Under the pieces are notes generated by a model, which saw only the letters and a program-made list of their open reading frames with translations, searched no databases and was not told the DNA's origin. Below are positions 8,778 to 11,751 of a DNA stretch of 12,666 nucleotides, one piece after another (positions within the stretch are counted from its first letter, which is position 1; each line of letters starts with the position of its first letter). The DNA is taken from the NCBI GenBank assembly GCA_025351545.1, contig JANXVQ010000766.1:1-12666 (forward strand), read 5' to 3'. The translations under genes were made by a program, and so were the position numbers. This stretch comes from Spirosoma sp. Its GTDB lineage: Bacteria; Bacteroidota; Bacteroidia; Cytophagales; Spirosomataceae.

Positions 8778-8785
8778 TACCTTTG
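8778..8785 (+). promoter_or_regulatory. Bacteroidota-type -7 box for kdnA
   Basis: TACCTTTG is a full match to TAnnTTTG, 63 bp upstream of the kdnA ATG. No TTG is seen at the expected -33 position, so promoter strength is uncertain. The 164-bp gap between guaD and kdnA otherwise holds the GC-rich repeat and a leader hairpin. Confidence 0.45.
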
Positions 8786-8848: not shown

Positions 8849-10054
8849 ATGCCAGGAATGGAGTTTTTCGGATCGGCCGAGCGCAAGGAAATCAACGATG
8901 TGCTTGAGACTGGTATCCTGTTTCGGTATAATCACGAAGCGCAACGCAATAATATTTACAAAGCCCGCGAGTTCGAGGCTGAGGTCGCCAAGTTAGTTGG
9001 GGCAAAGTACGCCCACGCTGTATCGAGCGGCTCAACTGCCGTTTTGTGTGCATTGGCAGCTGCCGGAATTGGTGCGGGCGACGAGGTTATTGTGCCGCCA
9101 TTTACCTACATCGCCACCGTTGAGGCCGTTTTGATGGCGGGCGCCTTACCTGTTTTTGCTGATATTGACGAAACGCTTTGTCTAAGTGCCGCCGGTATCC
9201 GTCGTGTCATCACACCTAAAACCAAAGCCATCTGCCTGGTGCATATGTGCGGCCAAATGGCTGATATGGATGCGATTATGGCGATTGTGAAGGAGCATAA
9301 TTTAGTGCTTGTCGAAGATGCCGGTCAGGCAATGGGCGCAAGTTACAAAGGTGTTTCGAGCGGTCTGTGGGGCAAAACCGGTGCTTATTCGTTCGACTTC
9401 TTCAAGATTGCAACGGCGGGCGAAGGCGGCATTATGGTCACCAACGACGAAACAGCCTATAAACACGCTGATTCCTATTCCGATCACGGCCACGACCACG
9501 TTGGTAGTAACCGGGGCATGGAACAACACCCGATTCTGGGTTTCAACTACCGTATTAGCGAACTCCACGCGGCTATTGGTTTAGTTCAGACGCGCCGGGT
9601 GCCGGAGATTATTAAAAATAATAATGCCCACAAAGCGCAACTTATGTCGGCGTTAGCGACTGTGCCGGGGGTAACCTTTGCACAAATTCCCGACGCGAAT
9701 GGTGATTCGGCAACATTCCTGAATATACTACTGACAGATACCGATTCAGCACAACGCACGGTCGACGAACTAAACGCGGCCGGTGTGGGCGGATTCAATT
9801 ACTGGTTCACGAATATGTACCACTTCATTAATCAGTGGAACCACATTAAAGAAATGCGGACGGCTGCCCCGTTAGCAATCGAAAAACTTGGTGCCCCACA
9901 AGACTATAAAAACCTCGACATTCCCAACGCACAGGCGACTATTGGTCGACTAATTTCGTTCGGTATCCGGGCAACGTGGACATCGGAAGAAGTGGCTGCA
10001 TTGGCCAAAAATATCGAAGCCGCCGTTCGAAAAGCAACACTGGTAGAAGCGTAA
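8849..10054 (+). CDS. kdnA: Kdo8N transaminase KdnA (DegT/DnrJ/EryC1/StrS family)
   Basis: PLP-dependent sugar aminotransferase that converts 8-oxo-Kdo, made by KdnB, to 8-amino-3,8-dideoxy-D-manno-octulosonate (Kdo8N) using glutamate. 401 residues. From memory it closely resembles Shewanella oneidensis KdnA along its length: MPGxExFG start, TGILFRYN (21-28), AHAVSSGSTAV (55-65), AGDEVIVPPFTYIATVEA (76-93), IDETLCLS, LVHMCGQMADMD, the cofactor-binding D157 in VEDAGQAMGASYKG, the Schiff-base lysine K186 in SFDFFKIATAGEGG, and SDHGHDHVG..RGMEQHPILGFNYRISE. The SDHGHDH motif and the MPG start are specific enough to favour KdnA over generic perosamine- or QuiC-type enzymes. It is the first gene of the predicted kdn transcript. 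The gene after it is an antitoxin rather than kdnB; kdnB follows 599 bp further on. Confidence 0.9.
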   Translation: MPGMEFFGSAERKEINDVLETGILFRYNHEAQRNNIYKAREFEAEVAKLVGAKYAHAVSSGSTAVLCALAAAGIGAGDEVIVPPFTYIATVEAVLMAGALPVFADIDETLCLSAAGIRRVITPKTKAICLVHMCGQMADMDAIMAIVKEHNLVLVEDAGQAMGASYKGVSSGLWGKTGAYSFDFFKIATAGEGGIMVTNDETAYKHADSYSDHGHDHVGSNRGMEQHPILGFNYRISELHAAIGLVQTRRVPEIIKNNNAHKAQLMSALATVPGVTFAQIPDANGDSATFLNILLTDTDSAQRTVDELNAAGVGGFNYWFTNMYHFINQWNHIKEMRTAAPLAIEKLGAPQDYKNLDIPNAQATIGRLISFGIRATWTSEEVAALAKNIEAAVRKATLVEA

Positions 10055-10073
10055 TTTACCTTACAATAAACGT

Positions 10074-10277
10074 ATGTCAACGACCGCCTTATTGACCCAG
10101 ATAACAGCCCTTCCTCCCGAATTGCGTCGGGAGGTTGAAGACTTTGTTGCTTTTTTACGGACGAAGAAGCAACGGGAAGCAAGTCTAGCGAAACGTGAGT
10201 TTGGTTATGCTAAAGGGAAAGTACGATTGTCAAGGGATTTCGACGCTCCCCTAGATGACTTTAACGAGTATATGTAA
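10074..10277 (+). CDS. DUF2281-type antitoxin
   Basis: 67 residues. The N-terminal half (LLTQITALPPELRREVEDFV then AFLRTKK) is the helical DUF2281 motif. The C-terminal tail FGYAKGKVRLSRDFDAPLDD-FNEYM (about 43-67) is the extended peptide that in such antitoxins wraps over the toxin active site. The stop codon TAA shares its last base with the ATG of the next gene, the PIN-domain toxin, the usual antitoxin-first coupled arrangement. It begins 19 bp after kdnA. Such antitoxins generally repress their own promoter, but I see no clear operator in the 19-bp gap, so it may depend on kdnA read-through. Confidence 0.85.
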   Translation: MSTTALLTQITALPPELRREVEDFVAFLRTKKQREASLAKREFGYAKGKVRLSRDFDAPLDDFNEYM

Positions 10278-10660
10278 TGCGACTATTGCTTGACACGCAC
10301 ACATTACTCTGGTTTTATGGTGGAGATGAATCGTTACCCGCCGATCTCAAAGAGATTATTGGGGACCCCGCTAATGATTGTTACATCAGTATCGCAAGTT
10401 TGTGGGAAATAACGATCAAGATTAGTTTAGGTAAATTGGAAATTAGTACGCCAATAACAGAGTTATTCAGTTTTCTGGAACGCAATCAATTCTGGGTAGT
10501 ACCGATTGAGTTTGACCATTTACTGCACTTGCAGAAATTGCCACATCATCACAAGGATCCATTTGATCGGTTGATTATCGCACAGGCTTTGTCCGAAAAT
10601 TTACCTATTGCGACAAAAGATCAATTTTTCGGCCATTATGGCTTAACAACACAATGGTAG
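10277..10660 (+). CDS. PIN-domain ribonuclease toxin (VapC-like)
   Basis: 127 residues, the size of a type II toxin of the PIN family. The metal-binding acids expected for an Mg-dependent RNase are present: D6 in LLLDTHTLLW, E44 in ASLWEITIKISLGKL, D94 (and D97) in HHKDPFDRLIIAQA, and D115 in IATKDQFF. The sequence is of the COG3744 subgroup that pairs with DUF2281 antitoxins. Its target RNA is unknown. Translation is coupled to the antitoxin by a 1-base overlap (TAATG). Its own stop TAG (10658-10660) lies inside the first codons of kdnB (ATGGTAG), a 7-base overlap. By eye the pair is more A/T-rich than kdnA and kdnB, which is consistent with acquisition by insertion. Confidence 0.9.
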   Translation: MRLLLDTHTLLWFYGGDESLPADLKEIIGDPANDCYISIASLWEITIKISLGKLEISTPITELFSFLERNQFWVVPIEFDHLLHLQKLPHHHKDPFDRLIIAQALSENLPIATKDQFFGHYGLTTQW

Positions 10661-11751
10661 CAACACCAACCACGCATAAAAATTTTAAGGGCATTGAGAA
10701 GACGGTTTTTGGTCGGGGAAGTTTTTCTCAACTCGACGAAATTCTGGCTCCGCGCCGGGGCGACAACGAAGGCTATTTTGTCTTTTTGGTCGATAATTAT
10801 TTCAAAGGGAAACCCCTTGAAGGTCAGGTTCCGGTTCATCCTGAAGATTTAACGTACTATATCAGCGTTGAAGAACACGAACCAACAACTGACCAGATTG
10901 ATCAGCTTCGCGATGAAATCCTAGCTAAAAAAGGCTTGCCATCGGGTGTCGTGGGTATCGGGGGAGGTAGCATCATGGACATCGCCAAAGCATTGTCGTT
11001 GATGTTGACTAACGAGGGGTCTTCGACACTTTATCAGGGATTGAATCTCATTAAAAAGCCGGGCGTTTACCACGTTGGTGTGCCGACCATTTCTGGAACT
11101 GGTGCCGAGGTTTCGATGACTGCCGTGCTAACCGGACCGGTTAAAAAACTGGGTCTCAAATGCGAATGGACGGTATTCAACCAAATCGTACTCGATCCCG
11201 ATCTGATTGCCAGCGTACCCCGTAACTGGTGGTTTTACACCGGTATGGATACTTACATTCACTGCATTGAGTCGGAGAATGGGCGGATGAATAATGCCTA
11301 TTCGCACGCTTACGCTGAGCAGGCCATGAAACTCTGTCGGGAAGTGTATCTGGGTGAAAACTCTGGGCAGACAGCCGAAAACGACGATAAATTAATGGTG
11401 GCGTCGATGATGGGCGGGTTGAGTCTGACCTACTCCGAAGTGGGCGTTTGTCATGCCATCAGCTACGGGTTGTCGAAGATTTTGGGAACTCGCCATTGTT
11501 ATGCCAACTGTCTGATTATGAATCACCTCGGCGATTATTATCCTGAGGGCGTGGCTGAGTTTAAGGAAATGGTAGCGTATCACCAGATTGATTTGCCGCA
11601 GGGTTTATCGAACGAATGGAGTGACGATACCATCACTCAGATGGCGCATATATCGTACAATTTGCCGCATATGTGGTTACACGCTATCGGCGATAATTGG
11701 CAGGACGTTATTACGATTGACCTGCTGAAAGGTCTGTTCCGGCGATTGTAA
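10654..11751 (+). CDS. kdnB: Kdo 8-oxidase/dehydrogenase KdnB (iron-type alcohol dehydrogenase)
   Basis: Metal-dependent alcohol dehydrogenase that oxidises the C8 hydroxyl of free Kdo so that KdnA can aminate it. 365 residues. N-terminus NFKGIEKTVFGRGSFSQLDE (10-29), nucleotide loop GIGGGSIMDIAKALSLML (101-118), PTISGTGAEVSMTAVL (144-159). The metal ligands of this family are all visible: D199 and H203 in TGMDTYIHCIE, H267 in VCHAISYGL, and H281 in GTRHCYANC, with the classical 4- and 14-residue spacings. From memory it matches Shewanella oneidensis KdnB over the whole length, including SYGLSxxLG and the C-terminal LFRR. The ATG at 10654 overlaps the toxin stop by 7 bases, so expression may be coupled to the toxin-antitoxin transcript; the next in-frame ATG is far inside the protein. 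Confidence 0.91.
   Translation: MVATPTTHKNFKGIEKTVFGRGSFSQLDEILAPRRGDNEGYFVFLVDNYFKGKPLEGQVPVHPEDLTYYISVEEHEPTTDQIDQLRDEILAKKGLPSGVVGIGGGSIMDIAKALSLMLTNEGSSTLYQGLNLIKKPGVYHVGVPTISGTGAEVSMTAVLTGPVKKLGLKCEWTVFNQIVLDPDLIASVPRNWWFYTGMDTYIHCIESENGRMNNAYSHAYAEQAMKLCREVYLGENSGQTAENDDKLMVASMMGGLSLTYSEVGVCHAISYGLSKILGTRHCYANCLIMNHLGDYYPEGVAEFKEMVAYHQIDLPQGLSNEWSDDTITQMAHISYNLPHMWLHAIGDNWQDVITIDLLKGLFRRL

Follow-up and report, generated by a model that had tools for sequence, protein, structure and literature searches.

A predicted VapBC pair between kdnA and kdnB of Spirosoma lies in a recurrent slot for toxin–antitoxin modules and may have lent its 3' end to the kdnB start

The window, which is the whole stretch of 12,666 nucleotides analysed here, carries a predicted kdnA–kdnB operon of a Spirosoma species with a toxin–antitoxin (TA) pair between the two biosynthetic genes. 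Other genomes of the genus have kdnB genes that, over the core compared, match named Spirosoma records without a difference. The relevant features all lie on the forward strand:

8778..8785, + strand: TAnnTTTG, Bacteroidota-type -7 promoter motif upstream of kdnA, probable operon promoter
8849..10054, + strand: kdnA, DegT-family aminotransferase, 401 aa, identified to family level
10055..10073, + strand: spacer between kdnA and the antitoxin gene, 19 bp
10074..10277, + strand: VapB-type antitoxin, DUF2281, 67 aa (Pfam and NCBIfam)
10277..10660, + strand: predicted VapC-type toxin, PIN domain, 127 aa (Pfam, model, residues)
10625..10653, + strand: toxin-gene 3' end, apparently retained as kdnB leader (“scar”) in many relatives without the pair
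10654..10660, + strand: ATGGTAG, 7-base overlap of kdnB start codon and toxin stop
10654..11751, + strand: kdnB, iron-dependent alcohol dehydrogenase family, Kdo 8-oxidase relative, 365 aa
11961..12666, + strand: kdsA (Kdo-8-phosphate synthase), next gene downstream, cut by the window end

The nearest solved relative of the KdnB product is 3-deoxy-alpha-D-manno-octulosonate 8-oxidase (5k8c, E 2.5e-126). KdnA belongs to the DegT family (276 bits in Pfam) and scores under the cut-offs of all NCBIfam aminotransferase models among the matches listed. Genes for a putative Kdo 8-oxidase relative and for an aminotransferase are neighbours here, which is consistent with kdnAB, with KdnA placed to family level. 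An earlier note on this DNA had described a TA pair between these genes, with a gap of 19 bp after kdnA and overlaps of one and seven bases, and the gene coordinates confirm this arrangement. The note had also called the pair richer in A/T than its neighbours, and its GC content is indeed 42.2%, compared with 50.9% for kdnA, 48.0% for kdnB, and 49.1% for the window. Only 6.7% of 587-bp windows are as GC-poor as the pair, and in five relatives with an intact pair the GC content of the slot is likewise below that of both flanking genes.

Family matches to DUF2281 and PIN bear out the further claim that a real TA pair lies within a biosynthetic operon. The antitoxin matches DUF2281 in Pfam (E 2.7e-15) and passes the NCBIfam equivalog TA_VapB (80.1 bits, cut-off 60). 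The toxin matches the PIN domain in Pfam (E 3.8e-17, 63.4 bits, cut-off 23.6) and has no match in NCBIfam and none by sequence in the PDB at E 0.01. Its AlphaFold model has a mean pLDDT of 87 on a five-row alignment (two of the five models good, three poor), and the closest PDB matches to this predicted structure are VapC chains, such as 3tnd_A (E 1e-5, TM 0.69). Residues D6, E44, D97, and D115, which we take to be the conserved acidic catalytic residues, are invariant in five slot copies. The antitoxin gene lies adjacent to and upstream of the toxin gene and overlaps it by one base (TAATG), as in the VapBC layout. These features point to a type II VapBC module with a putative toxin function. 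Purifying selection acts on both genes (dN/dS 0.07 and 0.11 between loci L089 and L090, the sole pair of loci short of near-saturation in all four genes), and other species carry this pair at the same position, so it is not a chance arrangement. A second close copy in the same genome was also sought, and only a 34% PIN match was found in this assembly, which is 80% complete. The domain pair is the same as that of a marine VapC/DUF2281 system, for which toxicity and neutralisation were demonstrated in E. coli (PMC12654330), and of PIN/DUF2281 pairs of Synechocystis (PMC4963859). In the marine example the toxin gene comes first (PMC12654330), whereas here the antitoxin gene does, as in the Synechocystis table (PMC4963859).

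TAnnTTTG is the Bacteroidota-type -7 promoter consensus. In 25 of 25 Spirosoma loci this motif falls within the 140 nt before kdnA (1.0 expected from shuffles), whereas only 1 of 30 has it before kdnB (1.05 expected), which makes it likely that kdnA, the pair, and kdnB share one transcript. TTG at the -33 place is found in only one of the 25 kdnA upstream regions. Within the window the motif is not significant by itself (six occurrences, 8.6 expected), and it is absent from the + strand between 8786 and the window end; the scan of the window found no promoter motif of the pair's own. A sigma-70-type scan of the window returned 11 sites (6.2 expected), none of them on the + strand between the end of kdnA and the start of kdnB. 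The terminator scan stayed below shuffles (1 compared with 3.5) and was used only for the interval between kdnA and kdnB, where it found no terminator-like site. The earlier claim that transcription is tied across the pair is probably right, and the tight link that it had seen between the toxin end and the kdnB start is plain from the 7-base ATGGTAG overlap.

Occupancy of the kdnA–kdnB junction was surveyed by searching for kdnB in 198 relatives and in a collection of 84,980 species genomes, of which the best 80 of 179 relatives were kept as named loci. The 129 loci obtained were reduced to 105 by removal of 24 same-genome duplicates, and 88 of these have kdnA upstream of kdnB; 14 of the 80 named loci, in which no kdnA was found beside kdnB, are excluded from the 88. 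In this set, which draws on the best 80 of 179 relatives and whose loci are not phylogenetically independent, the junction holds extra genes in 36 of 88 distinct loci and has no insert in the other 52. TA or TA-like genes of eight kinds make up 33 of the 36 inserts in the same set: DUF2281-PIN, intact or decayed (nine loci); DUF4160-DUF2442 (seven); a 52-aa protein with DUF6169 (five); DUF6922 with an AbiEii nucleotidyltransferase (five); an ORF6N protein (four); and, in one locus each, a second VapBC type with an apparently broken toxin frame, a MazEF-like pair, and a HicAB-like pair. The DUF6169 and ORF6N kinds are classed as TA-like by layout only, and the HicB-like and MazE-like partners, like DUF4258 (see below), score under their Pfam cut-offs. 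The three remaining inserts, a HIT protein alone (two loci) and a lipoprotein-like ORF (one locus), are not TA genes. On the tree of these loci, which again draw on the best 80 of 179 relatives, a quick search with hand-coded slot states counts at least 27 state changes of the junction. Filled and unfilled states occur between the same conserved flanks, and different modules occur at the same junction; judged by these gene arrangements, the kdnA–kdnB junction is a recurrent slot for TA modules.

For comparison, we examined junctions of codirectional genes conserved in at least seven of the 80 named loci (the best 80 of 179 relatives), in which gene calling recovered 63 kdnA–kdnB pairs. Among these named loci, kdnA–kdnB is occupied in 28 of 63 cases, and 11 junctions that do not touch kdnB are occupied in 0 of 101. 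Other kdnB junctions in the best 80 relatives are also interrupted: 9 of 30 for kdnB–kdsA, 5 of 17 and 2 of 7 for two further genes that follow kdnB, and 1 of 9 for another gene that precedes it. For all kdnB junctions together, the Fisher test gives 6e-14 on these loci, which are not independent. With the threshold loosened to at least three of the same loci, non-kdnB junctions are occupied in 2 of 110 cases, one with a PIN gene (L096) and one resembling a broken neighbour gene (L088). When small gene clusters are admitted, 18 of 172 are occupied, six of them within the kdnA–kdnB slot and the rest representing unsorted gene-content differences; the controls are less clean under such looser counting. 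Two control junctions in the genus are never interrupted, namely DUF4254–GT9 (0 of 25; 5 of the 30 GT9 loci are paralogues without a DUF4254 neighbour) and moaC–mobA (0 of 30, with mobA loci from 30 of 36 genomes). The tadA–kdnA junction shows no module in 20 cases, one of whose gaps contains a 54-aa ORF. Embedding in an operon is not special by itself, because 10 of 25 PIN copies outside the slot are flanked on both sides by codirectional genes; in 12 of the 25, another gene on the same strand follows within 60 bp.

Inserts downstream of kdnB are partly signal-peptidase-like or transposase-like and partly TA-like pairs. The kdnB–kdsA gap of L088, L095, L008, L100, and L092 contains TA-like pairs, either DUF5615 with a 76-aa partner or a DUF4258-like protein with a 74-aa partner, the partners presumably being DUF433 and DUF2283. 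L100 apparently has both kinds in this gap and a third pair between kdnA and kdnB. In ten Spirosoma loci (L082–L084, L089, L090, L007, L008, and L018–L020) the gap holds a gene of about 167 aa, absent from the window, which we assume to resemble lipoprotein signal peptidase. Two Runella loci (L119 and L122) have a transposase-like ORF after kdnB, presumably of the REP-associated type, and we also take a GxxExxY-like protein to be among the neighbouring inserts. In L096, another junction of two conserved genes, some 2.7 kb upstream of kdnB, holds a PIN toxin gene (839–1228).

An intact DUF2281-PIN pair occupies the same place in six loci: the window, L005 (genome G023), L089 (S. panaciterrae), L090, and the Siphonobacter loci L098 and L099. 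On the kdnA+kdnB tree, with slot states coded by hand, the intact Spirosoma loci (the window, L005, L089, and L090) are scattered among pair-less ones; a loss-only count gives 13 losses, or seven when branches under 80 are collapsed. Within Spirosoma, the slot PINs branch in the same order as kdnAB, and synonymous divergence of the toxin gene between L089 and L090 is similar to that of the flanks (pS 0.51 for PIN, 0.49 for the antitoxin, 0.44 for kdnB, and 0.40 for kdnA). In the PIN tree, a single origin of the slot copies is weakly supported (61/0, 62% of bootstraps). Decayed forms include a frameshifted toxin in L063, next to Siphonobacter, an internally deleted toxin beside an intact antitoxin in L097, an antitoxin with a toxin tail in L093 and L007, toxin tails of at least 17 codons in L082, L088, and L096, and tails of about 10 codons in several loci. 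The antitoxin frame is intact or nearly so beside a broken toxin in L097, L093, L063, and L007, and among the loci examined every intact slot toxin has its antitoxin beside it.

The presence of the toxin 3' end at many “empty” Spirosoma junctions indicates that these junctions record losses. With the start codon excluded, 11 of the 16 spacers tested resemble the toxin end to a degree that at most 1 of 1000 shuffles attains; the match is marginal in L014 (8 of 1000) and L086 (39 of 1000), and the same test gives no support for a scar in L010, L019, and L092. No scar was found in L091, L094, L095, L031, and L068. A 23-position pattern of the toxin end, with two positions free, is exact in 12 of 238 loci, representing seven genomes: the intact L005 and the toxin-less L083, L085, L087, L088, L016, and L007. 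The toxin tail F..Y.....W is native to PIN proteins, since it is shared by 6 of 6 copies in the slot and by 18 of 25 elsewhere. The intact L090 and its near relative L019, with a 24-nt spacer, mark what, from their sequences, is a recent loss. In the window, AATTT at the kdnA stop recurs in the toxin's 3' end, and in L003 it is found at the kdnA stop and again about 29 nt before kdnB, positions that would fit that of the junction in L083. The likeliest history of the Spirosoma pair is therefore an old presence with repeated loss (7–13 losses) rather than a new insertion, and the scars led us to reject a recent insertion with clean empty sites in Spirosoma. The earlier note had expected a genome with an empty site to display the state before insertion. 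The proposed comparison of spacing does recover relatives with kdnA directly before kdnB, but many of the Spirosoma sites hold the last ~10 codons of the toxin.

Start positions of kdnB, for which only ATG was considered, were compared in 30 Spirosoma loci and 12 rows from outside the genus. In 11 of the 12 outgroup rows, including Siphonobacter with an intact pair, ATG stands at -1, directly before the conserved HKNF. In 23 of the 30 Spirosoma loci, the start is ATGGTAR at -7 or -9, where the toxin gene has its final codon and stop, and the codon at -1 is no longer ATG; a second ATG is present at -18 in L086. The remaining seven Spirosoma starts are at -12 (L091 and L094), -3 (L093 and L096), and -1 (L095, L031, and L068), with an additional ATG at -25 in L095. 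This distribution suggests that the kdnB start was captured from the end of the toxin gene, whose codons would act as a leader. Because kdnA and kdnB overlap by eight bases in seven loci, including that of Chryseolinea serpens, the overlap with the toxin may restore an older kind of coupling.

Although the earlier note had described KdnB as an essential-pathway enzyme, no kdnB orthologue is present in 5 of 36 genus genomes (G003, G005, G008, G012, and G014), each about 99% complete, and the best kdnA-like matches there reach 35–41% over part of the protein. With kdnAB missing from these five near-complete genomes, the genus can do without the pathway. G033 also lacks kdnB, at 71% completeness. 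In G014 (L222, 1400–1501), kdnA and kdnB are both gone, and only the promoter motif separates tadA from kdsA (94%). The four other kdnAB-less genus genomes (L223–L226) contain only a 42–43% relative of kdsA, and the Kdo branch seems, from these matches, to have been replaced in them.

We consider it likely that the pair is an ancestral, repeatedly lost VapBC passenger whose 3' end became the start region of kdnB. The module would have been in the junction already in the ancestor of Spirosoma, perhaps in that shared with Siphonobacter, and it is one of at least eight small TA or TA-like kinds that have filled the slot in Cytophagales and relatives. The pair would probably be expressed from the kdnA promoter. 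In Spirosoma, the kdnB start, judged by sequence, has shifted upstream into the toxin stop (ATGGTAR), which would have turned the toxin's last codons into a leader for kdnB. Decay takes the toxin first and leaves the flanking genes in place. Some losses may have been deletions between two short repeats, one at the kdnA stop and the other some 29 nt ahead of kdnB. In Runella, L129 and L070 cease to be homologous 3 nt past the kdnA stop and are alike again from the start of kdnB, with flanks 94.9 and 95.7% identical; here (L129 compared with L070 and L130) the whole spacer may have been exchanged through the conserved flanking genes. The modules would most likely endure as selfish passengers that protect themselves inside a transcribed operon the cell does not need. 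Modules and operon would stabilise each other to some extent at most, and the modules would not be regulators of Kdo8N synthesis.

Several other explanations account for parts of these data. The pair could be an addiction element that punishes loss of kdnAB and so stabilises Kdo8N synthesis. kdnAB is indeed dispensable and has been lost, as the five near-complete genomes without an orthologue attest, the modules sit between the two genes, so that loss of both takes the antitoxin away, and another resident of the slot, DUF4160-DUF2442, raised plasmid persistence in Thermus (PMC12724237). The module has nevertheless been lost 7–13 times with kdnAB kept, 52 of the 88 loci (a set drawing on the best 80 of 179 relatives) have kdnA–kdnB with no insert, and G014 is without both genes. 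Given these repeated losses and the state of G014, any addiction would be weak or temporary, and we regard this explanation as unlikely. A regulatory coupling, in which toxin or antitoxin adjusts kdnB output and hence lipopolysaccharide under stress, would suit the single-transcript layout and the 7-base overlap; kdnAB is equally intact, however, where the junction holds unrelated modules or none, and the ATGGTAR start outlives the toxin, which implies that it serves kdnB initiation with no need for the toxin. We consider such a role very improbable.

The weak support for the slot PIN group and the apparent replacement of slot contents in Runella would also be compatible with independent gains, whereby intact copies were transferred in separately and the toxin end derives from an old kdnB leader, which would be what the “scars” represent. 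Against this, the tail is the native C-terminus of PIN proteins, shared by the Siphonobacter slot copies and 18 of 25 copies elsewhere, the toxins of L007, L097, L093, L096, L082, and L088 are partly deleted, and both the order of the slot PINs and their synonymous divergence match those of the flanking genes, so that we hold separate gains to be improbable. AbiEii, ORF6N, and VapC, families linked to phage biology, are among the kinds in the slot, and lipopolysaccharide is a phage receptor; modules might thus gather beside a surface-sugar operon to act jointly against phages. None of the six slot proteins tried has a PADLOC match, though, and we give little credence to a defence cluster of this kind. 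Somewhat more plausible, if still doubtful as a whole, is a docking site in which kdnA and kdnB serve as homology arms that trade whole spacers with different modules, embedded modules slow the loss of a dispensable lipopolysaccharide operon, and kdnB has captured its start codon and leader from the toxin gene, whose end would remain a permanent working part of the operon once the toxin had died.

The reading that we favour, of an old passenger that is repeatedly lost, has precedents. TA pairs between operon genes, other modules in the same place, and module decay are already known (PMC7167474). The intercistronic modules of E. coli include relA-mazEF-mazG, dinB-yafNO-yafP, and ccd in folA-apaH; as in these cases, a TA module here lies between two operon genes, relatives have the uninterrupted operon, and modules decay, and other modules share the position, much as parDE takes the same place in Salmonella (PMC7167474). 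Unlike in the E. coli cases described there, at least eight TA or TA-like kinds are found at one junction, the kdnB start codon lies inside the toxin stop, and toxin 3' ends appear to be left as a leader (PMC7167474). DUF4160-DUF2442, the domain pair of the second resident of the Spirosoma slot, is that of dhiTA (PMC8198452), which is reported to be a working TA system (PMC8198452, PMC12724237), and the parts of these two papers that concern dhiTA make no tie to kdnAB. KdnA and KdnB of Shewanella were described by Gattis et al. 2013 (cited in PMC5125639), and Shewanella KdnB is of the same enzyme family as KdnB here (PMC5125639); this comparison covers the enzyme family, and in the window a TA module separates the two genes. 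In the portion of the open-licence literature consulted, we found no description of the slot diversity, the toxin-derived leader, or the captured start, which does not imply their absence from print.

The entry of TA modules into chromosomes and their exit have been called unelucidated (PMC7167474). The kdnA–kdnB junction offers a natural series within one genus, with intact, internally deleted, tail-only, and replaced modules between conserved flanks and with control junctions. It suggests how the trace of a selfish module can outlast the module, with its 3' end kept as the start region of the gene that follows, and more such fossils could surface in scans of “intergenic” leaders.

Two loci show further peculiarities. 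L088 (Spirosoma telluris) has a kdnB that is disrupted close to the start and a kdsA in two matching pieces, perhaps through sequencing errors. In L007 (genome G032), the spacer contains an inverted repeat with TTTGTCATTCCGACG arms between the truncated antitoxin gene and the toxin tail; G032 has 13 matches to the TTTGTCATTCCGACG half-site, several of them in facing pairs about 55 bp apart, and the element looks like a short mobile repeat.
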